A stretch of DNA of 45,514 nucleotides. It comes from Lachnospiraceae bacterium (lineage in GTDB: Bacteria > Bacillota > Clostridia > Lachnospirales > Lachnospiraceae). Below, one piece after another: positions 22,198-37,700 of the stretch. The notes under the pieces are model-generated. The model saw only the letters and a program-made list of their open reading frames with translations. It searched no databases and was not told where the DNA came from. The position numbers were made by a program, and so were the translations under genes. Location: positions 1 through 45,514 of the forward strand of contig JAFUFL010000005.1 of NCBI GenBank assembly GCA_017469935.1, written 5' to 3'. How positions within the stretch are numbered: the first letter of the stretch is position 1; every line of letters begins with the position of its first letter.

Positions 22198-23493
22198 ATG
22201 AAAAAAACACCCTACATCACCAGAGAAAAGGCAGAAGAGATAGCGAGAACATGGCCAACCCCTTTCTATCTGTATGACGAAAAGGGCATCCGTGAAAACT
22301 CGGAAGCGGTCAGGGAGGCGTTCTCCTGGAACCCCGGATTCCGCGAATATTTTGCCGTAAAAGCAACCCCGAACCCGTATATCATGCAGATCTTCAAGGA
22401 TTACGATTTCGGATTTGACTGCTCCTCCCTTGCGGAGCTCATGCTGGCAAAAGCAGTCGGAGCGGACGGAAAACACATCATGTTTTCCTCAAATGATACG
22501 CCGGAAGAAGAGTACGCCTACGCGGCTAAGCTCGGCGCCATCATCAATCTCGATGACATCACGCACATTCCTTTCCTGGAGAAGATCCTCGGCGGAAAGT
22601 TCCCGGAGACCATGAGTCTTCGCTACAATCCGGGCGGCGTCTTCCGGATGTCCAACGGCATTATGGACAACCCCGGAGATTCCAAGTACGGCTTCACGAA
22701 GCAGCAGCTCTTCGAGGGCGTCAGGATCCTGAAAGAGAAGGGCGTCAAGCACTTCGGCATTCACGCCTTCCTGGCAAGTAATACCGTGACCAATGAGTAT
22801 TATCCAATGCTGGCGGCCCAGCTCTTCGAGCTGGTGGCGGAGATCCACCGCACATTCGACGTGCACATCGCATTTGTCAATCTGTCCGGCGGCGTAGGCG
22901 TTGCGTACTCCCCTTACGATACTCCCAATGATATCCGTGTCATCGGCGAGGGCGTCAAGGAGGTCTATGACGCGGTCCTGCGCGACAAGGGAATGGGCGA
23001 CGTGGCGATCTACTGCGAGATGGGCCGCTTTATGCTGGCTCCTTACGGCGCGCTGATCACCAAGGCAATCCATGAGAAGCACATCTACAAAGAGTACATC
23101 GGCGTGGACGCCTGCGCGGCCAACCTGATGAGGCCCGCCATGTACGGCGCCTATCACCACATCACGGTCCTGGGCAAGGAAGACGCCCTCAGGGACCACA
23201 TGTACGATGTGACCGGGTCCCTGTGCGAGAACAACGACAAGTTCGCCGTCGACCGTCTGCTCCCCAAGATCGACATGGGCGATTATCTCTTCATCCACGA
23301 CGCGGGCGCGCACGGTTTTGCCATGGGCTACAACTACAACGGAAGACTGCGCAGCGCGGAGCTCCTTCTGAAAGAGGACGGAAGCGTCAAGGAGATCCGC
23401 AGAGCGGAGACCGAGATGGACTATTTCGCGACCTTCAGCGGCACGGACTTCTACGGCAGTCTTCAGGAGCAGTACAGTGAATTGAGAGGCTGA
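22198..23493 (+). CDS. lysA: Diaminopimelate decarboxylase-family enzyme
   Basis: A 431-residue fold-type III PLP decarboxylase. PLP Lys 55 is in FAVKATPNP; the C-terminal half has EMGRFMLAP and the cysteine motif GSLCENND, then DAGAHGFAMGYNYNGR. It most likely converts meso-diaminopimelate to lysine. The HIGSQ segment of standard LysA is replaced by HAFLASNTV, a variant form, so the substrate is not completely certain. GAGGAAA lies just before ATG 22198. The HAD phosphatase gene starts 5 bases downstream. Confidence 0.85.
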   Translation: MKKTPYITREKAEEIARTWPTPFYLYDEKGIRENSEAVREAFSWNPGFREYFAVKATPNPYIMQIFKDYDFGFDCSSLAELMLAKAVGADGKHIMFSSNDTPEEEYAYAAKLGAIINLDDITHIPFLEKILGGKFPETMSLRYNPGGVFRMSNGIMDNPGDSKYGFTKQQLFEGVRILKEKGVKHFGIHAFLASNTVTNEYYPMLAAQLFELVAEIHRTFDVHIAFVNLSGGVGVAYSPYDTPNDIRVIGEGVKEVYDAVLRDKGMGDVAIYCEMGRFMLAPYGALITKAIHEKHIYKEYIGVDACAANLMRPAMYGAYHHITVLGKEDALRDHMYDVTGSLCENNDKFAVDRLLPKIDMGDYLFIHDAGAHGFAMGYNYNGRLRSAELLLKEDGSVKEIRRAETEMDYFATFSGTDFYGSLQEQYSELRG

Positions 23494-23497
23494 AGCG

Positions 23498-24283
23498 GTG
23501 AAGAAAAAGTATTTTTTCTTTGATATAGACGGCACGCTGACGGACAGGGCCACGGGCAAAATAGTGCCGTCAGCCATTCTTGCCGTGCAAAAGCTCAAAG
23601 AGGCCGGGCACTTTGTGGCCATCAATACAGGAAGAGCCCACTACAAAGCGAGAAAGTTCTTCGACGAGAACGGCTTCGACAATATGGTCTGCAACGGCGG
23701 CAAGGCGATCGTCGTGGACCGGGAGCTGGTGGAGAACAGTCCGCTGGTCTTTGAAGACGCCATAAAGCTCTACCACGAGGCGATCGACAAGGGATACGGC
23801 GTTCTCGTCGCGGATGAGGACTCGGATCTGGTAAGGACCAGGGACTTTCGCTTCTATGAGCAGGCCGGGATCCGGAAAGAGCCGACGACTTACGTGATCG
23901 ACGGAAATTACGAGCCGGAGAAAAAGGGCATCATCTACAAGATGTACATCTCCGTTCCGCAGAGCGAGGAGAGCCGTCTTCTGAATATTTTGCCCTCCGC
24001 GGAGCCTCTGGGGTGCCTGTGGTTTGAGCCGGAATACCTGCTGATCCAGCAGGACGCCAAAAAAGAGGGGATTCTGAGAATGCTGGAGCTGGTCGGCGGA
24101 GAGTGCGAAGATGTGGTCGTGTTCGGTGACGACACGAACGATCTCGACATGTTTGCGGAAGAGTTTTACAAGGTCGCCATGGGCAACGGACATCCGCTGC
24201 TGAAAGCGGCGGCGGACGAGGTGGCGGCCGCCAATGTGGACGACGGCATCTATAAAGTGTGTGAAAAAAACGGGTGGTTTTAA
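23498..24283 (+). CDS. HAD-family phosphatase (Cof type), GTG start
   Basis: A 261-residue HAD hydrolase. Motif I FDIDGTLTD gives the nucleophile Asp 9 and acid Asp 11; GDDTNDLDMF near the C-terminus is motif IV. The cap is of the Cof/C2 type, whose members usually dephosphorylate sugar phosphates or cofactors. The start is GTG 23498, with GAGAGG upstream inside the previous gene's end. The stop codon lies within the stem of the terminator that closes this operon. Confidence 0.92.
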   Translation: MKKKYFFFDIDGTLTDRATGKIVPSAILAVQKLKEAGHFVAINTGRAHYKARKFFDENGFDNMVCNGGKAIVVDRELVENSPLVFEDAIKLYHEAIDKGYGVLVADEDSDLVRTRDFRFYEQAGIRKEPTTYVIDGNYEPEKKGIIYKMYISVPQSEESRLLNILPSAEPLGCLWFEPEYLLIQQDAKKEGILRMLELVGGECEDVVVFGDDTNDLDMFAEEFYKVAMGNGHPLLKAAADEVAAANVDDGIYKVCEKNGWF

Positions 24284-24374: not shown

Positions 24375-25445
24375 TCAGTCGTAGATCTCGTCGCCTTCGA
24401 GCATGTAGTAGCTCATGCCTTCCATCTTGAGCATGGTATCGAGGTAAGCGGAATACTTGGTATCCCAGCTGCTGTAGGCTTTATCGCCCCGGTGGTCGGT
24501 CAGATCATAGTTCTTTCTGAGATACTCGCCCATGTATTTGGTGACCTTGGCGACGCCGTACTCGTTGAGGTGGTCGCCCTCATCGCGGGTGTCGTGGCTC
24601 CAGTCGATGCCGATCTCTCTCCAGTTCTGATTGAGGTCGATATAGGTGAGCCCGCGGGACCCGGCGTAATCGCCGATCGAATTGATCCGCGCCGTGTCGT
24701 AGCACTTGGGAGAGCAGAGGCTGTAGAATATGACCTCGATGTCATTCTCTTCACACAGTTTGAGGATTTTGTCCATATAGTAAGTGGAAAGATATTCGAA
24801 CTTCTTCCTCTCCTGTGTAGGCCCCAGATAGTCGGTGTCTCCCGTATAAGGCATAATGTGTTCGCTGATCAGATATCCCATGTAGTACTCGCGGATACTG
24901 GGCTTGGAGCCGATGGCCTGCCATAGGTTATGATACCGGCAGAAAGGAAAATGGTACTGGAAAAACTCCGACAGCGCGGTCTGCAGATCCGTGAGCGGGT
25001 CATCGGAGCGCAGCATCATGTTGGATTCGATCATGATCAGGTCGGGATGCTGATAGCTGAGCCCGTGCTTGAGAAGATAATAGGCTTCCGAGGTCTTGGA
25101 CGCTCCCTTGCACAGATTGAAGGAAGTGTATCCTTCCTCGTGCCACAGGTCCATGGGGGAGATGCCTACCATGGCCAGGCTGTTGCCGATGTTATAGATG
25201 TCGATTGTATCCCGTGGGATCGTGGTGATCTCCGCGTACCGGGCGTTTCGGTCCTTGATCAGGCCGGCCGTAAACCACTTGCCGGGATTAAGAAGGATCC
25301 CCGCGGCCGCGAGCATTAATGCCAGAAGAAGACCGAAGGCGAGGACCTTAAGGAGCTGCCTGGCGGTTATGGAATCCGATGAAGTTTGTAAAGATTTATT
25401 TAATGATTTATTTAATGGTTCATTCACAGATTTATTCTGCTGCAT
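24375..25445 (-). CDS. DltD-like SGNH-family membrane protein, paralog 1
   Basis: A 356-residue protein with a cytoplasmic N-terminus carrying Asn/Lys/Ser/Leu repeats (NKSLNKSLQ), one membrane helix (about residues 31-52) and an outer SGNH-hydrolase-like domain. The nucleophile block is YNIGNSLAM (Ser 89) and the C-terminal block DEGDHLN supplies Asp and His. FCRYHNLW and DHRGDKAYSSWD are shared with the two plus-strand paralogs. DltD proteins complete transfer of D-alanine to teichoic acids. This copy is divergent from the dlt-like operon and has its own promoter. AAAGGAA precedes the ATG at 25445. Confidence 0.85.
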   Translation of the reverse strand: MQQNKSVNEPLNKSLNKSLQTSSDSITARQLLKVLAFGLLLALMLAAAGILLNPGKWFTAGLIKDRNARYAEITTIPRDTIDIYNIGNSLAMVGISPMDLWHEEGYTSFNLCKGASKTSEAYYLLKHGLSYQHPDLIMIESNMMLRSDDPLTDLQTALSEFFQYHFPFCRYHNLWQAIGSKPSIREYYMGYLISEHIMPYTGDTDYLGPTQERKKFEYLSTYYMDKILKLCEENDIEVIFYSLCSPKCYDTARINSIGDYAGSRGLTYIDLNQNWREIGIDWSHDTRDEGDHLNEYGVAKVTKYMGEYLRKNYDLTDHRGDKAYSSWDTKYSAYLDTMLKMEGMSYYMLEGDEIYD

Positions 25446-25464
25446 ATGGTAATTCCTTTTTTGC

Positions 25465-25491
25465 TGGACAATTCTGATTTTTCAGTATAAT
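25465..25491 (+). promoter_or_regulatory. Promoter toward the dlt-like operon
   Basis: TGGACA (25465-25470) and consensus TATAAT (25486-25491) with a short 15-base spacer. A start near 25498 would leave a leader of about 210 bases before the adenylation gene. The -10 overlaps the -10 of the divergent promoter on the minus strand. Confidence 0.5.
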
Positions 25492-25512
25492 GCAGACGGC
25501 GCAATTTGTCGA
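25484..25512 (-). promoter_or_regulatory. Sigma-A promoter of DltD-like paralog 1
   Basis: Reading on the minus strand: TCGACA (25512-25507), a 17-base spacer, TATACT (25489-25484). Transcription would begin near 25477, about 32 bases before the start codon. Confidence 0.75.
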
Positions 25513-25709
25513 GTTACAGGAAAACATTTGTATAAGACGTTTTCTTCAGGAGGAAGGTTTTTGAGAAGGTTTTGAGAAGATTTGGCGGGAGAGTATTGCA
25601 AAAAAGGCATTTTAAGCTTAAGGTAGATTAGATGTGGTTTCGTCAGGTATTCTCGATTGTAACCTTTAACATAGATGTCTTTGAAAAAGATGAAAGGAGT
25701 GAACAGCTT

Positions 25710-27227
25710 TTGGAAACAATTCTTGACAGACTTGAACTTACAGAAAAGGAATACGGGAGCCGTCCCGCCGTAGATGACGGATCGGTATGCCTTACATATA
25801 AAGAGCTCGCTTCGAAGGCCAGAGGAATCGGAGGTGCCCTGAGCACGCAGATCAGCAAGGGAGAGCCGGTGGCGATTCTGGCCGAGAAGAGCACGGCGAC
25901 GCTGTGCTGCATGTACGGCGTTGTTTACGCCGGCGGCTTCTACGTGAGCGTCAACCCCGAGCAGCCCCCGGAGAGAATCCGGAAGATCCTGGATGTGCTT
26001 GAATCCAAGATCGTTGTCGTGGACCAGGCCAGAAGAGAGCAGCTGACGGCTTCCGGGTACACGGGAAAAGTGCTGTATCTCGAGGACCTCTACAGCGGTG
26101 CCGACGAGATGAGCGAGGAGGCGGCCGCAAGGCTTGCCGCGATCCGCCCGCAGATCAAGGGCGAGGATCCGCTTTACGGCGTATTCACTTCCGGTTCCAC
26201 CGGAAATCCCAAGGGCATTATTGTCGGGCACAAGTCCGTGCTTGACTTCATCGGTCATTTCACACAGATCTTCGGGATCACCTGCGAGGACATCATGGGC
26301 AACCAGGCGCCCTTCGACTTCGACGTGTCGGTCAAGGACCTCTACTCCTGCATGTTCACGGGCGCGGAAGTGGTCCTCATTCCAAGAGAGTTCTTCAGCA
26401 CGCCGCCCAGGCTCCTGGATTACCTCTGCGATAAGAACGTGACCGTCCTTGTATGGGCGGTATCGGCCCTGTGCATCGTCTCCGGCCTCAAGGGCCTGCG
26501 CTACAGGGTCCCCGAGAAGGTCAGGATCATCATGTTCAGCGGCGAAGTGATGCCGATCAAGCACCTGCAGATCTGGCAGGACGCGCTTCCGAACGCGGAA
26601 TATGTAAACCTTTACGGTCCCTCCGAGATCACCTGCAACTGCACCTATTACAGGATCGAGAGGAAGTTTGAGAAGACCGAGAAGCTCCCGATCGGCGGCG
26701 CTTTCCCCGGCAGGACCGTGTTCCTCATGGATGACGAGGGCAAAATAGTGACGGAGCCCGGCGTCTCCGGCGAGATCTGCTGCGCGGGCGAGTCCCTGGC
26801 GATCTGCTACTACAACAATCCCGAGCAGACGGCAAAACAGTTCATCATGTACGACCTGGACGGCCGCGAGCAGCGCGTCTACAAGACAGGCGACCTGGCT
26901 GCCTACGGAACGGACGGCGAGCTCTATTTTGCCGGAAGAGGAGACTTCCAGATCAAGCACATGGGCCACAGGATCGAACTCGAAGAGATCGAGACCAACT
27001 TCATGGCGCTGGACGGCGTGGCGAGAGCGGTCTGCCTCTTCGACGAGAAGAAGAACCGGATCGTCTGCTGGTATATGGGCGACATCGAGCCCAGGGAAGT
27101 GCGGATCCGCCTCAAGGAGAAGGTCCCGGCCTACATGGTGCCCGGCAGGATCAACCAGGTAGAAGACATGCCTTACAACAAGAACGGCAAGATCGACAGA
27201 GCGTATTTCCGCTCCCTTCTCGCCTGA
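25710..27227 (+). CDS. DltA-like amino acid adenylating ligase
   Basis: An AMP-forming ligase of about 505 residues. Core motifs: FTSGSTGNPKG (ATP phosphate loop), FDFDVSVKDLY (the Asp that binds a substrate amino group in DltA/NRPS domains), NLYGPSEITCN, YKTGDLA, GRGDFQIKHMGHRIELEEIE and the catalytic Lys in NKNGKID. It should activate an amino acid and load it on the carrier encoded at 28559. I prefer TTG 25710: AAAGGAG (25693-25699) lies 10 bases upstream and the family-like sequence begins there; the frame is open to ATG 25632, adding 26 atypical residues. The amino acid used is unknown. Confidence 0.88.
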   Translation: METILDRLELTEKEYGSRPAVDDGSVCLTYKELASKARGIGGALSTQISKGEPVAILAEKSTATLCCMYGVVYAGGFYVSVNPEQPPERIRKILDVLESKIVVVDQARREQLTASGYTGKVLYLEDLYSGADEMSEEAAARLAAIRPQIKGEDPLYGVFTSGSTGNPKGIIVGHKSVLDFIGHFTQIFGITCEDIMGNQAPFDFDVSVKDLYSCMFTGAEVVLIPREFFSTPPRLLDYLCDKNVTVLVWAVSALCIVSGLKGLRYRVPEKVRIIMFSGEVMPIKHLQIWQDALPNAEYVNLYGPSEITCNCTYYRIERKFEKTEKLPIGGAFPGRTVFLMDDEGKIVTEPGVSGEICCAGESLAICYYNNPEQTAKQFIMYDLDGREQRVYKTGDLAAYGTDGELYFAGRGDFQIKHMGHRIELEEIETNFMALDGVARAVCLFDEKKNRIVCWYMGDIEPREVRIRLKEKVPAYMVPGRINQVEDMPYNKNGKIDRAYFRSLLA

Positions 27228-27271
27228 ACATCAGAGAAAACAGTAACAGCAAAGAGTAATTAGGAGTAATT

Positions 27272-28468
27272 ATGGAACTGAGCAAGATTAAAGAAGCGGC
27301 GGACCGGTTCGGCACGCCCCTTTACCTGTTCGACCTCGACTGCATAAGGGACCGCGTGCAGCGCTTCCGCGATGCCTTTAAAGGCGAGATCGGGCTCACT
27401 TATTCTATGAAGACCAATCCCTTCCTGACTCTGGAGATGTCCCGGCAGGTAGAGCGCATCGAAGTCTGCTCCATGGGCGAATTCCGGATCTGCAGGGACC
27501 TGAAGATCCCGGCGGAGAAGCTTTACATCTCCGGCGTCCTCAAGATCCGCGAGGATCTGATGGAGATCCTTGACTACGGACAGGACACGGCCAGATATAC
27601 GGCGGAGTCGCCGCTGCAGCTGCAGATGCTCTCGGACTGGGCGGACGCCCATGACAAGACTCTCAGGGTTTATCCCAGGCTCACCAACGGAAGCCAGTTC
27701 GGTATGGACGAAGATACCATCTGCGGGCTGATTAAGGACCGCGGCAGGTTCCCGCACATTGAATTCGCGGGCATCCATTTCTTCTCCGGAACCCAGAAGA
27801 AGAAGCTGAGCAAGCACGAAAAAGAACTGGCTATGCTGGACGCCTTCTTCGAGAGACTTCTCACCGAGGCGGGCTACAAGGTCCCCGAGCTGGAGTACGG
27901 GACCGGCTTTGCCGTGTCCTATTTTGAGGACCAGAAGAAGAAAGAAGAAGATCTGCGCGATCCCGAGCATCTGGAAATGTTCCGCAAGATGGTGCAGGAC
28001 ATGAAGTGGAAGGGCATTGTGACCATCGAGATGGGCAGGGCTTACGCGGCCGAGTGCGGCTGCTACGTGACCACCGCCCTGGACATTAAGGAAAACGACG
28101 GCAACGCGATCTGCCTTGTGGACGGCGGCATCCATCAGCTCAACTATGACGGCCAGATCAAGGGCATGTACCGGCCGCAGATGGCGGTGATTCCCGCGGA
28201 GCCGGCCGGCGACAGGCAGGAGAAAGACTGGAGTATCTACGGATCCCTGTGCACGATGAACGATCTTCTGTGCAGAAGTTTTCCCGCAGAGATCGGACTG
28301 GGCGACCGCGTCGTGTTCTTCAAGACCGGTGCCTACAGCTTCTACGAGGGAATGAGCCTGTTCCTGAGCCATGAGCTTCCCGCGGTCGTACTGTACGGCG
28401 AGAAGGACGGATTCATTCCGGCGAGGGGACAGATCCAGTCCTATACGCTCAATATGGCAAAATACTGA
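27272..28468 (+). CDS. Fold-type III PLP-dependent decarboxylase in a dlt-like operon
   Basis: A 398-residue enzyme of the ornithine/diaminopimelate decarboxylase family. PLP Lys 47 is in YSMKTNP, GSQFGMDED binds near the cofactor, EMGRAYAAECG corresponds to the EPGR block, and GSLCTMND supplies the catalytic Cys 327. The HIGSQ motif of LysA is HFFSGTQ (from His 169), as in relatives associated with carrier proteins. It lies between ligase and carrier genes. By analogy with BtrK, which decarboxylates gamma-glutamyl on a carrier, it may modify the carrier-bound or free amino acid. Racemisation is an alternative. AGGAG precedes ATG 27272. Confidence 0.85.
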   Translation: MELSKIKEAADRFGTPLYLFDLDCIRDRVQRFRDAFKGEIGLTYSMKTNPFLTLEMSRQVERIEVCSMGEFRICRDLKIPAEKLYISGVLKIREDLMEILDYGQDTARYTAESPLQLQMLSDWADAHDKTLRVYPRLTNGSQFGMDEDTICGLIKDRGRFPHIEFAGIHFFSGTQKKKLSKHEKELAMLDAFFERLLTEAGYKVPELEYGTGFAVSYFEDQKKKEEDLRDPEHLEMFRKMVQDMKWKGIVTIEMGRAYAAECGCYVTTALDIKENDGNAICLVDGGIHQLNYDGQIKGMYRPQMAVIPAEPAGDRQEKDWSIYGSLCTMNDLLCRSFPAEIGLGDRVVFFKTGAYSFYEGMSLFLSHELPAVVLYGEKDGFIPARGQIQSYTLNMAKY

Positions 28469-28558
28469 ATAAACAAATCGATCGTATATATGGCGGTTTT
28501 GAATCAAATAAGTTATTATAGTCATGACACATTAAGTTTTTAACGATTAGGAGGAATT

Positions 28559-28786
28559 ATGGAAGAATTACTTGAGATCCTGCGGGACATTGACGACTCT
28601 GTAGATTACGAGAAAGAGACAGCACTTATTGACGATCATATCCTTGACTCATTCGGTATCATTACTCTGATCTCCGAGATCGAGGAACACTTTGACATCG
28701 AAGTGGACGCTGCGGAGATGACCCCTGAGAACTTCAATTCTGCGCAGGCAATGTGGAAGATGATTCAGAGGCTTCAGGAGAACTGA
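28559..28786 (+). CDS. DltC-like acyl carrier protein
   Basis: A 75-residue, acidic carrier protein. The phosphopantetheine Ser 31 is in ILDSFGII, the form typical of DltC rather than of fatty-acid ACP (DSL). Four-helix pattern and length fit. It would carry the activated aminoacyl group as a thioester to the MBOAT protein. AGGAGG is 5 bases before ATG 28559 and the next gene starts 4 bases after the stop. Confidence 0.93.
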   Translation: MEELLEILRDIDDSVDYEKETALIDDHILDSFGIITLISEIEEHFDIEVDAAEMTPENFNSAQAMWKMIQRLQEN

Positions 28787-28790
28787 TTAA

Positions 28791-30371
28791 ATGGCTATAC
28801 ATACAAACTTGTACCTGCTGGTATTTCTGCCTGCGGTGCTGATCATTTACCAGCTGGTACCACGCAAAGCAAGGTGGGGAGTACTGCTCGCCGCCAGCTA
28901 TGCATTGTATATTTCATTCAGCAAGTATCTGGTGCTGCTCCTCATGGCGACGGCCGCGTTCACCTATGCGATCGGCAGATGGATGGATAAGATCGGTAAT
29001 GATTGCGAAGAGAAGCAGAAAGAATGTACGGACCGCAAACAGAAAAGTGAAGTAAAGAAAGCTTTCCAGAAAAAGAGAGTGACGGCGCTTCGAGTAGGCG
29101 TGCTCGTCCTGCTCGGCATTCTGTTCTACGTAAATTACTACAACTTTGTGGCGCAGAACTGCAATATCTTCCTCGGAAAGATCGGCGCGCAGCTTCCCAT
29201 GGCGAAGGTGATGTTCCCGATGGGAATCTCCTTCTATACGCTGGAAGCAGTGGGCTATATGGCGGATGTGTACTGGGAGAGATATCCGGCTGAAAAGAAC
29301 CTCGGGAAGCTTGCTCTTTTCCTGAGCTTTTTCCCTCAGATCATGGAAGGCCCGATCGCGCGATATCCGGACACGTCGGACGCGCTCTTTGCGGGCGAGC
29401 CGCTGAGGATGGAGAACCTCAATGAGGGCTTTCTCAGGATCATCTGGGGTCTGTTCAAGAAGATGGTGGTGTCAGACCGTCTGACGCTTCTGACCAACCA
29501 CATTTTTGATAACTACAAAGAATACCACGGTAGTTTTATCGTTCTTGCGGCAATTGCCTATACAGTGCAGCTGTATCTCGAATTTTCCGGCAGTATTGAT
29601 ATCGTCATAGGCAGCGGCAAGTTCTTCGGCGTGACGATTCCGGAGAACTTCAACCAGCCGTTTTCGGCACAGAGTGCGGCGGAATTCTGGCGGCGCTGGC
29701 ATATGAGCCTCGGAAACTGGTTCAAGAACTATGTGTTCTATCCGATCACCGTATCGCCGATGGTCAAGAACTGGAACAAGATGGCGAGAAAGAAATACGG
29801 CAAGTATTGGGCGATGGTAGGTACGTCGGCGATGGCGCTGTTCCCGGTATGGGTGGCGACGGGCGTCTGGCACGGAGCAGGTTGGAAATACCTGTTCTAC
29901 GGTATGTACTATTTTGTGATCCTTTTGCTGGGAGTGGCACTGGAGCCGCTCAAGGAGAAGAGGAACAAAATGCTCGGAATCGATCCGAACGCCTGGTGGT
30001 TCAAGACACTCAGGATCCTCAAGACCTGGGTGATCATATTTACCGGCGAGCTGTTCTTCAACGCGAAGAACCTGACGGCGGGCTTTCACATGTTCTTCAG
30101 CATCTTCGGCAATTTCCACATCAGTTCGATCTGGAAGTACTTCCCGGATGTGATCACGGCGGGAGACGTATGGGCAATCTGCGTGGGAAGTGTGATCGTC
30201 TGGATCGTGGGCTTCTTAAAGGAGAACGGAGTGGACGTGAGAGGAAGGATCCTCGGCGCGCGCACGCGGTACAAATGGGGCATTTACTACCTCATTATTT
30301 TCGCGATCCTGACGTTTGGAGCGTACGGAACAGGTTATCAGCCTGTTGACCTGATCTACGCCGGATTCTGA
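28791..30371 (+). CDS. DltB-like MBOAT acyltransferase
   Basis: A 526-residue polytopic membrane protein of the MBOAT family. MFPMGISFYTLEAVGY, FFPQIMEGPIARY and FWRRWHMSLGNWF (His 304) are conserved, as is VWHGAGWKY with the catalytic His 361. In DltB this channel passes the aminoacyl group from the carrier to the outside. The protein is longer than classical DltB (about 400 residues), closer to AlgI/PatA-type members. Its last residues, DLIYAGF, resemble the C-terminal Tyr motif attributed to DltX and to some MBOAT proteins. No separate dltX gene was found. Confidence 0.93.
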   Translation: MAIHTNLYLLVFLPAVLIIYQLVPRKARWGVLLAASYALYISFSKYLVLLLMATAAFTYAIGRWMDKIGNDCEEKQKECTDRKQKSEVKKAFQKKRVTALRVGVLVLLGILFYVNYYNFVAQNCNIFLGKIGAQLPMAKVMFPMGISFYTLEAVGYMADVYWERYPAEKNLGKLALFLSFFPQIMEGPIARYPDTSDALFAGEPLRMENLNEGFLRIIWGLFKKMVVSDRLTLLTNHIFDNYKEYHGSFIVLAAIAYTVQLYLEFSGSIDIVIGSGKFFGVTIPENFNQPFSAQSAAEFWRRWHMSLGNWFKNYVFYPITVSPMVKNWNKMARKKYGKYWAMVGTSAMALFPVWVATGVWHGAGWKYLFYGMYYFVILLLGVALEPLKEKRNKMLGIDPNAWWFKTLRILKTWVIIFTGELFFNAKNLTAGFHMFFSIFGNFHISSIWKYFPDVITAGDVWAICVGSVIVWIVGFLKENGVDVRGRILGARTRYKWGIYYLIIFAILTFGAYGTGYQPVDLIYAGF

Positions 30372-30389
30372 TCATATTGCTGCCTGTTG

Positions 30390-30417
30390 CTATAGAGCTC
30401 TTCGCGGAGCTCTATAG
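30390..30417 (+). other. Hairpin between MBOAT and DltD-like genes
   Basis: CTATAGAGCTC (30390-30400) pairs perfectly with GAGCTCTATAG (30407-30417) around TTCGCG, followed by TTTTC. The T-run is short, so it would be a partial terminator or processing site that lowers expression of the downstream genes. Confidence 0.7.
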
Positions 30418-30435
30418 TTTTCAGAGGGTTTAGAG

Positions 30436-31479
30436 ATGACAAAAAAGAAACACATTTTGAAAATAGCCCTGTTCGGTGTCCTGCTCCTGCTGCTGTTGAC
30501 AGTCGCTTCGGCTATGATGAATCCGACCAAATGGTTTGATGAAAAGCTGATCCAGGACAGGAACGCGCGCACGGTGCAGATGATGGAGCAGCCCGCGCAC
30601 ACGATCGATGTCATGAATATCGGAGACAGCCTCAGCACAGCGGGATTTACGCCCATGGAGCTGTGGAGGCAGCAGGGAATTACTTCGTTCAATATCGGCG
30701 CGGACGGACTGCGGATGGCGGAGGCCTATTATGCGGTCATGGAAGACTGCAGAGAGCAGGAGCCCAAATATCTGTTGATGGAGTCGCTGCTGCTGTTCCG
30801 CTATGCGACCGGCCAGGACCTGCAAATGGTGCTGTCACAGCCTTTGTATCACACATTTCCGTTTCTTAAATACCACAATATCTGGAAAGCCCCCATCGAA
30901 GGCCCCGGGATCATGATTTATCACAGGGGATACACGGTGAATGAAAATGTCGGTGAATATGAGGGGGAAGATGAATACATGGACCTTGACCTCAAAGAAG
31001 GCAGGGTTGATATCTCTTTTTTAAACAGACTGTATTTTGACAGAATCAAGAAATTCTGTGACGAGAGAGGAATTAAGATCATACTCTACAGCATGCCGTC
31101 AGCTTCCAACTATAACTGGGATAGGGTAAATGCACTCAAAGAGTTTGCGAAGGAAAAGGGCGTGACGTATATTGATCTCAACCAGAAAACAGAGGAAATC
31201 GGGATCGACTGGGAGTGGGACACCAATGACGGCGGAGACCACATGAATTTGAACGGAGCCGTCAAAGTAGTGACGTTCTTCGGCAAATACTTCCGGGCGA
31301 ATACCGATCTTGCGGATCATCGAAATGACCCGAATTACAGTGACTGGGACGAGGAACTGATCGAGTACGACAAGCTGGTCAAAGAGATGGACGGCAAGAG
31401 CTTTTCCGACATCTGGCAGGAGATGAAGGATAAAGAGTGGGACGAGAAATACGGTAATAAACAAAACAAACAAAAATAG
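30436..31479 (+). CDS. DltD-like SGNH-family membrane protein, paralog 2
   Basis: A 347-residue protein with one N-terminal membrane helix (about residues 9-28) and an outer SGNH-like domain: MNIGDSLSTAG carries Ser 65, and NDGGDHMNLNG carries the Asp/His pair. The segments NPTKWF, KYHNIWKA and DHRNDPNYSDWD are shared with paralogs 1 and 3. It should act with the MBOAT protein in transferring the aminoacyl group to an extracellular acceptor. The C-terminus is charged and ends in Asn/Lys/Gln repeats. AGAGGGTTTAGAG is the likely binding site region before ATG 30436. Confidence 0.85.
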   Translation: MTKKKHILKIALFGVLLLLLLTVASAMMNPTKWFDEKLIQDRNARTVQMMEQPAHTIDVMNIGDSLSTAGFTPMELWRQQGITSFNIGADGLRMAEAYYAVMEDCREQEPKYLLMESLLLFRYATGQDLQMVLSQPLYHTFPFLKYHNIWKAPIEGPGIMIYHRGYTVNENVGEYEGEDEYMDLDLKEGRVDISFLNRLYFDRIKKFCDERGIKIILYSMPSASNYNWDRVNALKEFAKEKGVTYIDLNQKTEEIGIDWEWDTNDGGDHMNLNGAVKVVTFFGKYFRANTDLADHRNDPNYSDWDEELIEYDKLVKEMDGKSFSDIWQEMKDKEWDEKYGNKQNKQK

Positions 31480-31523
31480 TTTGAGAGTCCTGAGAGTTTT
31501 CGGACCAAGACTATGAACTTTCG

Positions 31524-31561
31524 GACTCCGGGGCTGCGCCTTATTACGCGGACCCGGAGTC
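31524..31561 (+). other. Hairpin between the two DltD-like genes
   Basis: GACTCCGGG (31524-31532) pairs with CCCGGAGTC (31553-31561) around a 20-base loop that contains a further GCG/CGC pairing. Only TTC follows, so termination would be weak. Confidence 0.6.
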
Positions 31562-31586
31562 TTCATGAACGGAACAAAAGGGTAAA

Positions 31587-32609
31587 ATGAAAAGTTTACT
31601 TAAGATCACGGGCTTTGCGAGCATACTGCTGATTACTATAGTGATCCTGGGCCTTTTATTCGACGGAGGAATCTGGTATAAAAGAGGCTTCATCTCTGAA
31701 AGAGATGCGAGGCTGGCCGGATTCGAAGCGGAAGAGAAGGGACAAATCGACGTGATCTGTGTGGGAAACAGTCTGGGAATCTGCGGCGTAGATCCCATGT
31801 ATTTGTACAAGAATTACGGATACACGTCTTACAACATCGGCTGCGAGATGCAGATGCCTGTCGAGACCTACTACACGATCAAGAGGACCATTAAGGACCA
31901 GCCGGTAAAAGTAATTCTCTGGGAAGCCAACAACATCTCCAAGCACCACAAGAACCTGGATGCGTATATCTCGCGTCTCGCGGAGGCGATCCGATTCAGG
32001 TCCTTTTACATAAAATATCATTACATCTGGAGAAATATCGCCGACGGCTATATACAGAGAAAATACTTCAAGGGTTTCTCCGTAAATGAAATTGTAAGGC
32101 CTTACACGGGCGGAGACTATTATGACGAGAGCGATCCCCACGTCGATGTATTTGCCAGCGAACAGTATTACTATTTCAGAAAGATCAAGGAGCTCTGTGA
32201 CGCTAACGGCATAGAACTGATCCTGTACGGTGTCCCGTCTCCCGTCAGTTATAATATCAGGATGCACAGGGGAATCGCAAAACTTGCCGAGGAAAACGGG
32301 GTAGCTTTCCTGGACGGCAACAGCGATCCGGAGCTTCTGCATATTGACTGGGAAAAGGATACCTTTGACGAGGGAGACCACCTGAATCTGTTCGGTTCCG
32401 CCAAGATGACGGAATATCTGGCGCAGTACATGGCAAAAAACTGCAGTCTTCAGGATCATCGCGGCGACCCGGCTTACCGCTCCTGGGATGAGCTGATCCC
32501 GGCCTATGAGCAGGAGATCAAAGACATGGAGGGAACCGGATATCCCGAAATTGAGAAGAAGCGCAAAGAAGAAAAGAAAAACCGGTACAGTACAGAAGAA
32601 AAGCAGTAA
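31587..32609 (+). CDS. DltD-like SGNH-family membrane protein, paralog 3
   Basis: A 340-residue protein with a membrane helix at about residues 5-26 and an outer SGNH-like domain: CVGNSLGICG holds Ser 62 and FDEGDHLNLFG the Asp and His. It shares IKYHYIWRN and DHRGDPAYRSWDELI with the other two paralogs but is the most divergent (LFDGGIWYKRG where they have NPGKWF or NPTKWF). The C-terminal 25 residues are Lys/Glu-rich. It probably belongs to the same transcript as the MBOAT gene, separated by two hairpins. A different acceptor from that of paralog 2 is possible. Confidence 0.85.
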   Translation: MKSLLKITGFASILLITIVILGLLFDGGIWYKRGFISERDARLAGFEAEEKGQIDVICVGNSLGICGVDPMYLYKNYGYTSYNIGCEMQMPVETYYTIKRTIKDQPVKVILWEANNISKHHKNLDAYISRLAEAIRFRSFYIKYHYIWRNIADGYIQRKYFKGFSVNEIVRPYTGGDYYDESDPHVDVFASEQYYYFRKIKELCDANGIELILYGVPSPVSYNIRMHRGIAKLAEENGVAFLDGNSDPELLHIDWEKDTFDEGDHLNLFGSAKMTEYLAQYMAKNCSLQDHRGDPAYRSWDELIPAYEQEIKDMEGTGYPEIEKKRKEEKKNRYSTEEKQ

Positions 32610-32737: not shown

Positions 32738-34336
32738 GTGTATAAAGATGGCAAGGTTTGGATGGGACTTAACGACACGAATGAGGAGATCTGCCTCCTT
32801 CCCGGAAAGGCGAACAGGCACGGTCTGATCGCCGGCGCTACCGGAACCGGTAAGACCGTGACACTCAGAGTCATGGCGGAGGCCTTCAGCGACATGGGCG
32901 TACCGGTCTTTATGGCGGATGTCAAGGGAGACCTGGCGGGAATGATGGCTCCGGGCACGGATACCGAAGATATGCGCGCCAGGATCGAGAGATTCGGGCT
33001 CAATCAGCACGGCTTCTCCTATCAGGGATATCCGGTGACCTTCTGGGATATCTACGGAGAGAAGGGCATTCCGCTCAGAACGACAGTATCTGAGATCGGA
33101 CCGCTCCTCATGGCCCGTATTCTCAAGCTCAACGAGCTTCAGTCCAATATTCTTGCGATTGTCTATAAGATCGCCGATGACAACGGACTTCTGCTGATCG
33201 ATCTCAAGGACCTCAAGTCCATGCTCAACTATGTGAACGACAACCGCAAGGAGTTTGAGGCGGAGTACGGCAAGATGAGCCCGGCCTCCATGGCGGCTAT
33301 CCTTCGCGCGGTGGTCGCGCTCGAGATCGAGGGCGGCGAAGTGTTCTTCGGCGAGCCCGGCCTCAATATCCGCGACTGGATCGCGCAGGAAGGCGGCAAG
33401 GGCATGATCAATATCCTGGACAGCGAGAGCCTGATCAACAACGGAAGACTGTATTCCACCTTCCTTCTGTGGATGCTCTCCGAGCTCTTCGAGCTCCTTC
33501 CCGAGGTGGGTGACCTGTCCAAGCCCAAGATGGTCTTCTTCTTCGACGAAGCTCATCTGCTCTTTAACGATGCGCCCAAGCCTCTTCTTGAGAAAATAGA
33601 GCAGGTCGTAAAACTCATCCGCTCCAAGGGCGTCGGCGTCTATTTCTGCACGCAGAACCCCAGAGATATTCCGGATGACGTTCTGGCCCAGCTGAGCAAC
33701 AGGATCCAGCACGCGCTGCACGCCTATACGCCGGCAGACCAGAAAGCGGTCCGCGCCGCGGCAGATTCCTTCCGCATAAATCCCGCCTTCAATACCTTCG
33801 ACACTATTCTGGGACTCGGGACCGGCGAGGCAGTGGTCTCCTTCCTTCAGGAAGACGGCACGCCCGGCATCGCCCAGAAGACCAGGATCCTTCCTCCGCA
33901 GAGCCGCATGGGCGCCGTCAGTGACTTTGAGAGAGAGCAGAAGATCAAAGAGAGCATCCTGTACGGCAAGTACGCCGACAGCGTAGATCCGGAATCCGCA
34001 TACGAGCTTCTTTTAAGGATCGGCCTGGAGAAGGAAGCAGCTGAGGCAAAGGCCAAACAGGAGCTGGAAGCTGCCAAGCAGAAAGCAAAGGAAGAGGCGG
34101 AACTGGCGAAACAGCAGGCGAAAGAAGCCAGGGAAGCAGCCAGAAAAGCTGAGAAGAACGCCAACGCCAAAAAGCGCGCCGCCAAGAGCATTGGGAGTAC
34201 GGTGGCAGGAACGGTCGGCCGCGAAGTCGGCAAGACGGTAGGCGGAACGATCGGAGGAAAGTTCGGCAAGACGATCGGCGGTAATCTGGGGTCCTCGCTC
34301 GGAAGAGGCATCCTCAATACTCTGTTCGGGGGCTGA
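32738..34336 (+). CDS. HerA-like/DUF853 ATPase, GTG start
   Basis: A 532-residue ATPase. Walker A is GATGTGKT (residues 33-40) and Walker B MVFFFDEAH; IRSKGVGVYFCTQNPRDIPDDVLAQL is the region after it that marks the HerA/YjgR group. The last 120 residues are a Lys/Glu/Ala-rich coiled coil followed by a Gly-rich, zipper-like tail (TVGGTIGGKFGKTIGG type), usual in this family. GGGGGTGA lies 5 bases before GTG 32738. Family members are hexameric ATPases of unknown cellular role, sometimes linked to DNA. It is closed downstream by a strong terminator. Confidence 0.93.
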   Translation: MYKDGKVWMGLNDTNEEICLLPGKANRHGLIAGATGTGKTVTLRVMAEAFSDMGVPVFMADVKGDLAGMMAPGTDTEDMRARIERFGLNQHGFSYQGYPVTFWDIYGEKGIPLRTTVSEIGPLLMARILKLNELQSNILAIVYKIADDNGLLLIDLKDLKSMLNYVNDNRKEFEAEYGKMSPASMAAILRAVVALEIEGGEVFFGEPGLNIRDWIAQEGGKGMINILDSESLINNGRLYSTFLLWMLSELFELLPEVGDLSKPKMVFFFDEAHLLFNDAPKPLLEKIEQVVKLIRSKGVGVYFCTQNPRDIPDDVLAQLSNRIQHALHAYTPADQKAVRAAADSFRINPAFNTFDTILGLGTGEAVVSFLQEDGTPGIAQKTRILPPQSRMGAVSDFEREQKIKESILYGKYADSVDPESAYELLLRIGLEKEAAEAKAKQELEAAKQKAKEEAELAKQQAKEAREAARKAEKNANAKKRAAKSIGSTVAGTVGREVGKTVGGTIGGKFGKTIGGNLGSSLGRGILNTLFGG

Positions 34337-34732: not shown

Positions 34733-37700
34733 ATGAGCTTGAGAAGCAGAATGCTGGCTGTCCTTCTGGCAGCGGCGACGGCGTTTAGCGCGGCATTTTC
34801 GGGGACGGCAAATGCTGCCGAACCCGGGACACCGGATTCCTCCGTACTGGAAGAGGCACAGGATGAGACGCGGGCGAAAAATTCCGCAGAGGAGACGAAA
34901 AAAGAGACGGAGCAGGAAAAAGGACCGGAACGGGAAACAGAACCGGAACGGGAATCAGAATCCGGGCGGGATCAGGAACCCGGGCAGGAGGAAGAAGAGA
35001 CGGCAGGGACTGCAAGCAGTGAGAACGCCGGGAGCGGCGCTTCCGAGGCCGCCTCTGAGGCGGAAGAATCGGATTATGCATCGACTTCCGAAGCATCCGC
35101 AGAGGACGGCTTGGCCCCCGGAACGACGCGGGAGAACGCGCAGGGCGAAGAAGAGATGCAGGAGGATTCCGGCCTGTGGGCGACGGACCGGGAAACGGCG
35201 GCAGAGATCGAGCCGGGACTTCCGAAAGCGGGGAGCAAAGAGGAGCAAAAGATGACGGCCGATAAAATGCCGGCATTTAAGGCGGAAATAAATACCGGCA
35301 GATATGTGGTCAGGATCAAGGCCGGGGAAGGAGTATTTCCGGAGGGAACAAAAGCGGAAGTGAAAGAACTCTCCGGAGACGACGCGCGTTCCTACGCGGA
35401 GCAGGCAGAGGAGATGGCGGACAGCGGAGTGGCGACGGCCGTCATTGATATCCGGTTTACGGACCGGAGCGGCAAGGAGATCCAGCCGAAGGGCATGGTG
35501 GATGTCGTATTCGACAACGCGGCGCAGGAGGACGCGCAGATGTCGGTCTACCACGCGGAAAACGGAAGCGCCTCCGATATGAAGAGCGTTCCCTGCAGCG
35601 TCGAAGGGGACAGCGTGCAGATCCGAAATGACAGTTTTTCCCCGTATGTGCTGCTGGCGGCCGCAAGTGAACCCGACTGGACAAAAGGCGGCAGGGGAAC
35701 CGGAAGGAATATTTCGGAGAAGATCACTCTCGTCTACAGGAACAAGAGAGAATATAAGTATGCGGACAAAGGGTATGACGGGGCCGGCAACGACTGGTGC
35801 ACGCTCGGCTACGACCTGTACCTGGACGGCAAAAAAGTCGGGACGGGAGTGTGTCTGGACCCGCTTCACAGCGGCTACGGAATGGAAGGAAAGGAAGCGG
35901 GAACGATCTATGAGATCGACGCCCCGATGATGGTGAAAGCGCTCTATTACGGGGCGGACGGCCCCGGCAGAAGCGTCATCGAGAAGGCCGTCGGCACCAC
36001 AGATACGAGCGCACTGCGCATAGTCACACATGTGGCGGCTTCGGAGCTCTACGTGCGCCTGGGCTATGCGAGACATTCCGCCAGCGGAGAAGGATTCCGG
36101 GACGCCTCAAACAAGCTCAAGGACCATGTCTACAAATTCGTGAGGGCAATCGAAGACCTTCCGGTGCCCGACAAGTACTACGCGTATGTGACGGCGGATA
36201 ACGGCTATGCGCCGGACGGTGTGACAAAGCAGGACTTCGGATTCGGCTCCTACGCGCTGATCGAGCATCCCGGATTTCTTAAGATAAAGAAGTCGACGGA
36301 AAACAAATCCATCTCGGACGGAAACAGCTGTTACTCCTATAAGGGGGCTCTCTACCAGGTCTACACCTCCGAGGCGGCCGCCCTGGCAAGGGGGACGGAA
36401 GGCATTGTCGAGGGGCTCCTCTTTGTGATTGAAGAAAACGGAGAATCCAATACCAAAAGACTGAAACCGGGTAAGTATTACCTGATCGAGACGAGGCCCG
36501 CGAAAGGGTATCTTCTCTCCGACAAGGTCTATCCCTTTACCGTTGTCGACAGCGAGATCGTTGAAGTCTCCGTTACGGATATGCCGGCCAATGACCCTGC
36601 GGGAATCGTGATTAATAAGACCTGCGGGAATGCGGAGGGCAAAGACGTTCGGAGCCTTGAGGGAACGGAATTCACAGTCCGCTTTTACAGCGGCTTTTAT
36701 GACGCTTCCTCACTTCCCGATGCGCCGGACAGAGAATGGGTGATTCAGGCATTGAAGACGGAAAACGGGCTGTATAAGGCGGCGCTCGACGAGAAGCATT
36801 TTGTGAGCGGCGATGATTTCTACAGGGTGGACGGCCTGATCACACTGCCTCTTGGAACGGTGACGATCAGGGAGACGAAGCCGGCCGAAGGATACAGGAA
36901 TGACGGCACATTCGGCGATCAGGAGCTGTACATAGGACAGATCCGGAGGACGGACCCCGGCCGGGCGCAGCTTCTCGATGTACAGGGGGAGAGAGCGACT
37001 TCCAACACGTTTGAGGTCGCGGACACGCTCTATCAGCCCGCGATCCTGACGGAGGCAAAAGACCAGGATACAGGAGATCACCAGCTCGCTCAAGCGGAAA
37101 AAGTGAGGGTTACGGACAAAGTCACTTATAAGGATCTCATTCCCGGCCGGGAGTATACGCTCAAAGGCGTCCTCGTCAGGAAAGCGGACGGCAAAGCGCT
37201 TACCGTGAACGGCAAAGAAGTGACTGCGGAAAAGATCTTTACTCCGGACAAAACGGACGGACAGACGGAAATGACGTTTGAATTTGACGCACAGGGTCTT
37301 GACGGAGGCGGACTCGTTGCCTTTGAAGAACTGTATGCATCGGGCGAAGAAAAACCGATCGCAGTTCATAAGGATTTGAGTGACCCCAATCAGACCGTTT
37401 TTCTCCCCGGAGTGACGACAGACGCCGCAGATAAGGACACCGGGGACAAGAACGCACGGGCGGACAAAGACCGCGTGATCGTGGACAGGATCAGCTATAA
37501 AGGACTGATCGCGGGAAAGACCTACGAGATCTCGGGAGAAGTCAAAATAAAGAGTGAAGAGGCGGATTTTGACGAGGCGAAAACCGCTGCGTCGACAATC
37601 ACTGCCGCAGAGGGAAAAGGCAATATCCGCTTTGACGATCACAAAGTGACATTCGTGCCGGAAGGCAAAGAAGGAGAAGAGGCGAGCGGAGAGATCTTTG

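Follow-up and report, generated by a model that had tools for sequence, protein, structure and literature searches.

Envelope acylation by an MBOAT and an SGNH protein occurs as carrier-fed D-alanylation through DltX and as acyl-CoA-fed acetylation. According to PMC12148441, the FXYXXF acyl-shuttle motif, whose Tyr is acylated, lies on DltX in the Dlt system and is fused to the MBOAT in PatA and others; the same source states that the MBOAT-SGNH pathways other than Dlt have no carrier, evidently due to their use of acyl-CoA. Decarboxylation of a carrier-bound amino acid by a pyridoxal phosphate (PLP) enzyme has been described for antibiotic pathways: BtrK decarboxylates glutamyl-BtrI (PMC7857480) and VinO decarboxylates 3-methylaspartyl-VinL, which is loaded by the adenylating enzyme VinN (PMC11284099). 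Here we describe an operon with resemblances to both kinds of systems in a contig of 45,514 nucleotides from Lachnospiraceae bacterium (assembly GCA_017469935.1, contig JAFUFL010000005.1; hereafter the window, meaning this whole stretch), which is one contig of a 3.55-Mb genome in 111 contigs. Its genes, which all lie on one strand between positions 25632 and 32609, specify a ligase (A), a PLP enzyme (P), the carrier (C), the MBOAT (M) and a pair of SGNH proteins (S1 and S2; S for this protein kind in general), confirming the preliminary description of a dlt-like order with a PLP decarboxylase gene between the ligase and the carrier.

The window operon shares with Dlt (DltA, DltB, DltC, DltD, DltX) an adenylating ligase, a phosphopantetheine carrier, an MBOAT, an SGNH protein and a shuttle-Tyr motif, but differs by the extra PLP decarboxylase and by the gene order. 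With PatA-PatB and other O-acetylation pairs it has in common an MBOAT with a C-terminal FXYXXF-type motif and a separate SGNH protein, whereas PatA uses acetyl-CoA without any carrier, and the ligase and carrier of the window presumably supply the acyl group. The VinN-VinL-VinO system resembles the scheme proposed below, as its adenylating enzyme charges a stand-alone carrier with an acidic amino acid that a PLP enzyme then decarboxylates in the bound state, but its product, the vicenistatin starter unit, enters a polyketide antibiotic. BtrK and BtrI likewise belong to an antibiotic pathway (butirosin), in which a glutamyl carrier is converted into the thioester of 4-aminobutyrate (GABA). The exosortase-A-associated set (TIGR03098, TIGR03099 and a carrier) consists of corresponding ligase, decarboxylase and carrier proteins, whose genes have an identical order in Sinorhizobium meliloti pSymB, but its ligase pocket differs, S. 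meliloti having Ser at the position of the window Lys and an Arg further on, and no MBOAT or SGNH protein is annotated in the two regions read, for which the gene tables are incomplete. In the open-access literature searched, no PLP decarboxylase in a Dlt-like operon was found, nor was there any earlier description of loading, on-carrier decarboxylation, MBOAT and SGNH functions combined in one conserved operon. We propose that this operon probably encodes a self-contained system of the MBOAT-SGNH kind for acylation of the envelope, which receives its acyl group from a carrier after decarboxylation in the carrier-bound state.

Recurrence of the gene set

Among the 299 genomes of the family sample searched with P, matches at E <= 1e-20 were found in 66; seven of these were dropped because their sole match was weak (E 1e-30 to 1e-20), leaving 59 genomes, including that of the window. 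For the analysis of gene neighborhoods, 60 regions, the best 80 of 573 confirmed relatives (named loci) and the window gave 141 loci, and removal of nine duplicates and of L143, where P is unreadable, resulted in 131 distinct loci. The loci were picked by similarity to P. As several regions stop inside the set, the linkage counts below are minima. One locus, L093, groups with LysA, so that 130 true members remain. The nearest named relatives of P in the contig scan belong to uncultured Lachnospiraceae UBA4260 (97% identity) and RUG14002 (92%).

The ligase gene lies immediately 5' of P in 120 of the 131 loci, a linkage that rules out P as a chance neighbor. On the same strand and within four genes of P, we found A in 126, C in 111, M in 110 and S in 107 loci. 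The comparison of gene neighborhoods suggested in the preliminary description thus placed all four partners within this distance in 90 of 131 loci, with the exact order A-P-C-M-S in 71 and M-S-A-P-C in 13. In the other 11 loci, A is not the immediate 5' neighbor of P; these are L045, where P is at the contig edge, L078, L083, L093 and L102, as well as L073, L085, L087, L088, L091 and L092, where the carrier gene occupies this place. Four of the latter (L073, L085, L087 and L088) form an A-C-P variant, followed by M in three of the four. A full A-P-C-M-S set is also present in L175, a contig labelled Streptococcus suis SSHP-D with a GC content of 32.5%; the GC content of S. suis is about 41%, which makes the label look doubtful, and L175 was not counted as streptococcal.

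The components also diverge together. Pairwise distances of P track those of A (Mantel r 0.805, 121 loci) and M (0.776, 107 loci), and correlate with those of C (0.637, 108 loci) and S (0.63, 104 loci), the permutation maxima for all four pairs being below 0.1. The flanking genes vary from locus to locus, and therefore the set looks self-contained.

Predicted properties of the encoded proteins

The pocket positions of the ligase were assigned by GrsA numbering and then checked by alignment to DltA-type proteins. The cavity that accommodates the D-alanine methyl group in DltA is formed by Leu, Met and Cys, of which Cys selects the D form (PMC8972799). At these positions the window ligase has Val, Lys and Ser. 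Six DltA-type proteins, fetched from the 13 genomes of the same family that have one, retain Leu and Cys in all six cases and Met in five. Among 121 ligases of the loci studied here, by contrast with DltA, the Met position is occupied by Lys in 116 and Arg in four (one unreadable), and the Cys position by Ser in 120 (one unreadable). Judged by its pocket, A is not a D-alanine ligase. The fixed basic residue fits a substrate with an additional carboxylate, which would therefore be loaded before decarboxylation; the pocket alone does not decide between glutamate, aspartate and diaminopimelate. The ligases of the four A-C-P loci carry the pocket string IARGCSQASK, in which the amine-binding Asp is replaced by Ile and the Lys by Arg, and may load another substrate.

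The scores against curated families agree with a position outside Dlt. Ligase A reaches 271.7 bits against the DltA equivalog TIGR01734 (cut-off 559.85), the carrier 28.4 bits against TIGR01688 (cut-off 52.35) and 40.7 bits against NF003464 (cut-off 68), both DltC equivalogs, and the MBOAT 143.5 bits against the DltB equivalog TIGR04091 (cut-off 375). A classical dlt operon was rejected on the grounds of these missed cut-offs and the changed pocket.

The best solved relatives of P are the BtrK structures (2j66 and 7ru7), with only about 94 bits, followed by diaminopimelate decarboxylases. After length filtering, 125 P rows were kept for residue counts, and the PLP-binding Lys and the catalytic Cys are present in all of them, as is an invariant Asp four residues further. 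The residue following the catalytic Cys is Thr in 114 rows, Ser in ten and Glu in a single one, from L093. Cys-Thr is also found in BtrK, in the S. meliloti and Aureimonas enzymes associated with exosortases and in a Streptomyces homolog encoded near a carrier gene, whereas Cys-Glu occurs in a solved diaminopimelate decarboxylase (alignment to 2p3e), the LysA-like protein of the window and the annotated LysA of Enterococcus gilvus and Azospirillum. A Gly-Thr-Gln stretch is also shared by P and BtrK. P remains far below the cut-offs of both the LysA equivalog TIGR01048 (134.7 bits, cut-off 297.9) and the exosortase-A-associated decarboxylase TIGR03099 (156.1 bits, cut-off 478.45). In a 48-row tree, midpoint-rooted only and with long branches flagged, a subset of 34 P rows formed one clade with support 100/100, which stands apart from LysA and from the exosortase-associated and other carrier-linked enzymes; according to PMC7857480, BtrK and diaminopimelate decarboxylases belong to a single clade. 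An assignment of P as LysA was rejected because of the separate LysA-like gene, the Cys-Thr motif and the tree position. By its motifs, P is a predicted decarboxylase of the BtrK type and not LysA, in line with the kinship to BtrK noted in the preliminary description, and the linkage of the genes suggests that it acts on the acylated carrier.

The attachment Ser of the carrier is kept in 108 of 108 relatives. In the MBOAT, the position of His361 is His in 104 of 107 relatives (three gaps) and the C-terminal shuttle Tyr is present in 103 (four gaps). The fetched loci yielded 109 distinct MBOAT sequences, a few of which are fragments or second copies. In 108 of them the C-terminus consists of Ile, Met, Val or Leu followed by Tyr, two residues and Phe or Tyr, the sole exception being L147 with a quite different end. 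The window system thus has a carrier and an MBOAT-fused shuttle motif together, and its membrane half is, on motif evidence, PatA-like rather than DltB-DltX-like. No open reading frame (ORF) of at least 20 amino acids ending in FXYXXF occurs just before or after the operon, and the inner gaps are at most 107 bases; this absence of DltX is weak evidence, because the same kind of scan detected a separate DltX (ending in FIYNEF) in only one of six DltA-type loci of the family.

Among 27 SGNH rows, S65 is nearly invariant and D265 and H269 are invariant. None of the 27 S proteins matched the Pfam model of DltD at E 0.01, and nine matched Lipase_GDSL_2. The structure model of S1 consists of an N-terminal helix and an SGNH domain and aligns with SGNH enzymes, PatB among them; no DltD row appeared among the 50 rows shown, which excludes nothing. 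We file the system under MBOAT-SGNH envelope acylation and not under Dlt, several defining features of which were looked for and not found.

Proposed mechanism and its alternatives

The sequence itself shows which genes belong to the set and how well they are conserved, along with the catalytic residues, a ligase pocket unlike that of DltA and a shuttle motif fused to the MBOAT; from these features we infer the substrate, the on-carrier timing, the product, the acceptor polymer and the function as follows. The substrate that ligase A would adenylate and load on the carrier is an amino acid bearing an additional carboxylate, most likely glutamate or aspartate activated at the side-chain carboxyl. 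P would then release the free alpha-carboxyl as CO2 from the carrier-bound acyl group, and the resulting omega-amino acyl thioester would be 4-aminobutyryl or beta-alanyl. The MBOAT would move this group across the membrane onto the Tyr of its own C-terminal IYxxF motif, from which the SGNH Ser would take it to esterify a surface polymer, and the ester would add positive charge, like D-alanylation. The loading and decarboxylation steps follow the precedents of VinN-VinL-VinO and BtrK-BtrI, and the last three steps those of Dlt and PatAB. The preliminary description had suggested a decarboxylated or otherwise modified amino acid instead of D-alanine, a view that gains support from the immediate A-P linkage (120 of 131 loci), the co-divergence, the BtrK- and exosortase-type features of P and its separation from LysA in the tree, the basic pocket unlike that for D-alanine and the presence of a separate LysA-like gene in the window. 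If its MBOAT is carrier-fed and uses a built-in Tyr shuttle to send out an omega-amino acyl group (4-aminobutyryl or beta-alanyl) that arose by decarboxylation on the carrier, the system could represent a third mode of MBOAT-SGNH acylation, a proposal on which we are almost evenly divided, leaning slightly against it.

Several observations weigh against decarboxylation on the carrier followed by transfer through M and S. The combination of Asp at the amine-binding position with Lys at GrsA position 239 also occurs in nonribosomal peptide synthetase modules that activate the alpha-carboxyl of glutamate, and such activation would leave no alpha-carboxylate for P. At some loci, e.g., L056, L057, L070, L072, L086 and L181, A-P-C is found without adjoining M-S; MBOAT matches (E <= 1e-15) exist in all eight genomes checked with irregular or A-P-C-only loci, but help little because MBOATs are common. 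Four loci combine the A-C-P order with the different IARGCSQASK pocket. In 12 loci, P and a class I/II aminotransferase gene are two to eight genes apart and frequently on opposite strands; the aminotransferase is taken as unrelated to the set, but could bear on the substrate. Finally, the window operon has no linked gene for polymer synthesis.

The problem of alpha-activation would be removed if A activated meso-diaminopimelate at one alpha-carboxyl and P decarboxylated the distal end on the carrier, yielding a lysyl-carrier and a lysylated polymer. P is related to LysA, a diaminopimelate decarboxylase, and the pocket combines the amine-binding Asp with a basic residue, Lys, that could serve the distal carboxylate. 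However, both the Cys-Glu motif and the Arg-Pro-x-x-Tyr stretch seen in the window's LysA-like protein are missing from P, the activation of free lysine would be simpler, and we know of no precedent, so that we consider this route unlikely. The same final product as in the glutamate or aspartate scheme would arise if P acted on a free amino acid and supplied, for example, GABA or beta-alanine for direct loading by A, in the manner of IdnL3, a PLP decarboxylase from the incednine pathway whose substrate is free beta-glutamate (PMC11284099). A basic pocket residue, present in 120 of 120 readable ligases, would be odd if the carboxylate were already gone, and both the Cys-Thr and Gly-Thr-Gln motifs of P are common to the carrier-acting BtrK; this scenario thus appears quite unlikely.

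Two further explanations concern the nature of P itself. Its alanine-racemase fold (PF01168, 20.6 bits, below the 24.1 cut-off) would suit an aminoacyl-carrier racemase or epimerase, but all 125 rows have the catalytic Cys of decarboxylases, and higher scores are reached with the Pfam models for decarboxylases (57.1 and 38.2 bits), making such an activity very improbable. That the locus is an ordinary D-alanylation operon with an unrelated decarboxylase inserted is scarcely credible: the ligase, carrier and MBOAT do resemble Dlt parts, but they fall far under the Dlt equivalog cut-offs, P is kept beside A across loci while the D-alanine pocket is not kept, and no DltX-like ORF was found. We therefore retain loading, on-carrier decarboxylation and export of the acyl group as the preferred scheme.

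Surroundings, distribution and implications

The features of the window are collected in the table. The position of S0, the third SGNH gene, is kept in the near relatives L103-L105, and S0 is likely part of the set. A scan for promoters returned 12 sites, compared with 6.4 (sd 2.3) in shuffled sequences, and one for terminators seven, compared with 7.0; neither result was used.

Features of the window in and around the operon (positions of the whole stretch)
Feature	Position	Strand	Remarks
LysA-like gene	22198-23493		best family TIGR01048, 271.3 bits, under its 297.9 cut-off
HAD-type gene	23498-24283		by reading of the sequence
S0, third SGNH paralog	24375..25445	-	upstream, divergent from the operon; 39% identity to S1
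Divergent intergenic region	25446..25631	.	probable promoter region; no ORF >= 20 aa ending in FXYXXF
A, stand-alone amino acid-adenylating ligase	25632..27227	+	pocket D231, V232, K235 (26334-26336), S303; the true start may be TTG at 25710
P, fold-type III PLP decarboxylase	27272..28468	+	PLP lysine K47 (27410-27412), catalytic cysteine C327 (28250-28252)
C, phosphopantetheine carrier protein	28559..28786	+	attachment serine S31 (28649-28651)
M, MBOAT acyltransferase	28791..30371	+	conserved His361
LIYAGF, MBOAT C-terminus	30351..30368	+	resembles FXYXXF of DltX/PatA; first Phe is Leu here
S1, membrane-anchored SGNH protein	30436..31479	+	GDS motif; Asp and His near the C-terminus
S2, second SGNH paralog	31587..32609	+	32% identity to S1
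HerA-like ATPase	32738-34336		3' of S2
Surface protein	34733-39211	+	1492 residues; five T-Q ester-bond domains and a SpaA domain; ends in a hydrophobic segment and basic tail, like wall-anchored proteins

Neighbor families were identified by one representative each (Pfam). In 41 of the 131 loci, genes for a histidine kinase and for a response regulator carrying an OmpR-type (Trans_reg_C) domain are found within eight genes; this may point to regulation as for stress-induced envelope operons and was counted in favor of the proposed acylation system. The other families include transporters, a tRNA synthetase, adenylosuccinate synthase, LysR, MatE, SpoU, a VTT protein, phosphatidylserine decarboxylase, a Gfo/Idh oxidoreductase and the class I/II aminotransferase, and none of these representatives is an obvious substrate maker. 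In L040, L041, L125 and L127-L129, the set is followed by the gene of a VTT-domain membrane protein, accompanied in five of the six by a gene for phosphatidylserine decarboxylase, which may point to control in common with lipid modification.

As to the acceptor, the window genome has no match to PF04464 and one match to the sulfatase-fold family, a protein of 809 residues that was read as LtaS-like from its sequence; the polymer may therefore be of the lipoteichoic type and is less likely to be a TagF-type wall teichoic acid. In L181 (2907-18230), A-P-C lies inside an exopolysaccharide cluster with genes for a UDP-sugar dehydrogenase, a hexapeptide-repeat transferase (directly 5' of the ligase) and a DegT aminotransferase; an aminotransferase gene lies directly 3' of the carrier, and no MBOAT or SGNH protein was recognized in this stretch. 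The preliminary description had pointed to ligase-carrier-decarboxylase sets in exosortase loci, and such a set is indeed present in S. meliloti pSymB (L188:6316-9445), where the exosortase-type ligase, decarboxylase and carrier genes adjoin in the same order as in the window, near glycosyltransferase genes. In a polysaccharide region of Aureimonas, the ligase and decarboxylase genes adjoin, and the carrier gene, encoded on the opposite strand, precedes the ligase by about 2 kb. The occurrence of A-P-C in the L181 polysaccharide cluster and of the S. meliloti set near glycosyltransferases suggests that the same acyl group can also be transferred to sugars by other means. On a plasmid of Streptomyces sp. 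S501 (L189:5965-10877), a P homolog is encoded beside holo-ACP synthase, a hotdog protein and an AMP-binding protein, with carrier, ectoine synthase and EctA genes also nearby; this set looks like an ectoine-related small-molecule pathway.

The genome of the window has no DltA above the curated cut-off, the best match being ligase A. In the family sample, DltA-type matches at E <= 1e-110 were found in 13 of 299 genomes, eight of them above the cut-off, a count that may be low as at most four candidates were scored in many genomes; the P system is the commoner of the two (59 vs 13 genomes). DltA occurs in three of the 59 P-positive and ten of the 240 P-negative genomes, and the two look neither linked nor mutually exclusive. 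In a phylum-wide sample, the P system was present in four of 398 genomes, including the window's own and one of the same family.

If the proposed scheme is true, the system may replace D-alanylation in surface charge and peptide resistance in Lachnospiraceae and their neighbors, and the surface of a sizeable group of gut commensals would carry an amino acyl modification different from D-alanine, introduced via a recognizable operon that is amenable to knockout. A missing dltA in a genome would then not mean that the function, surface charge and resistance to host peptides, is missing as well. Labile esters of this kind could release GABA or beta-alanine in the gut, and the ligase-decarboxylase-carrier triads of exopolysaccharide loci would gain a testable meaning.

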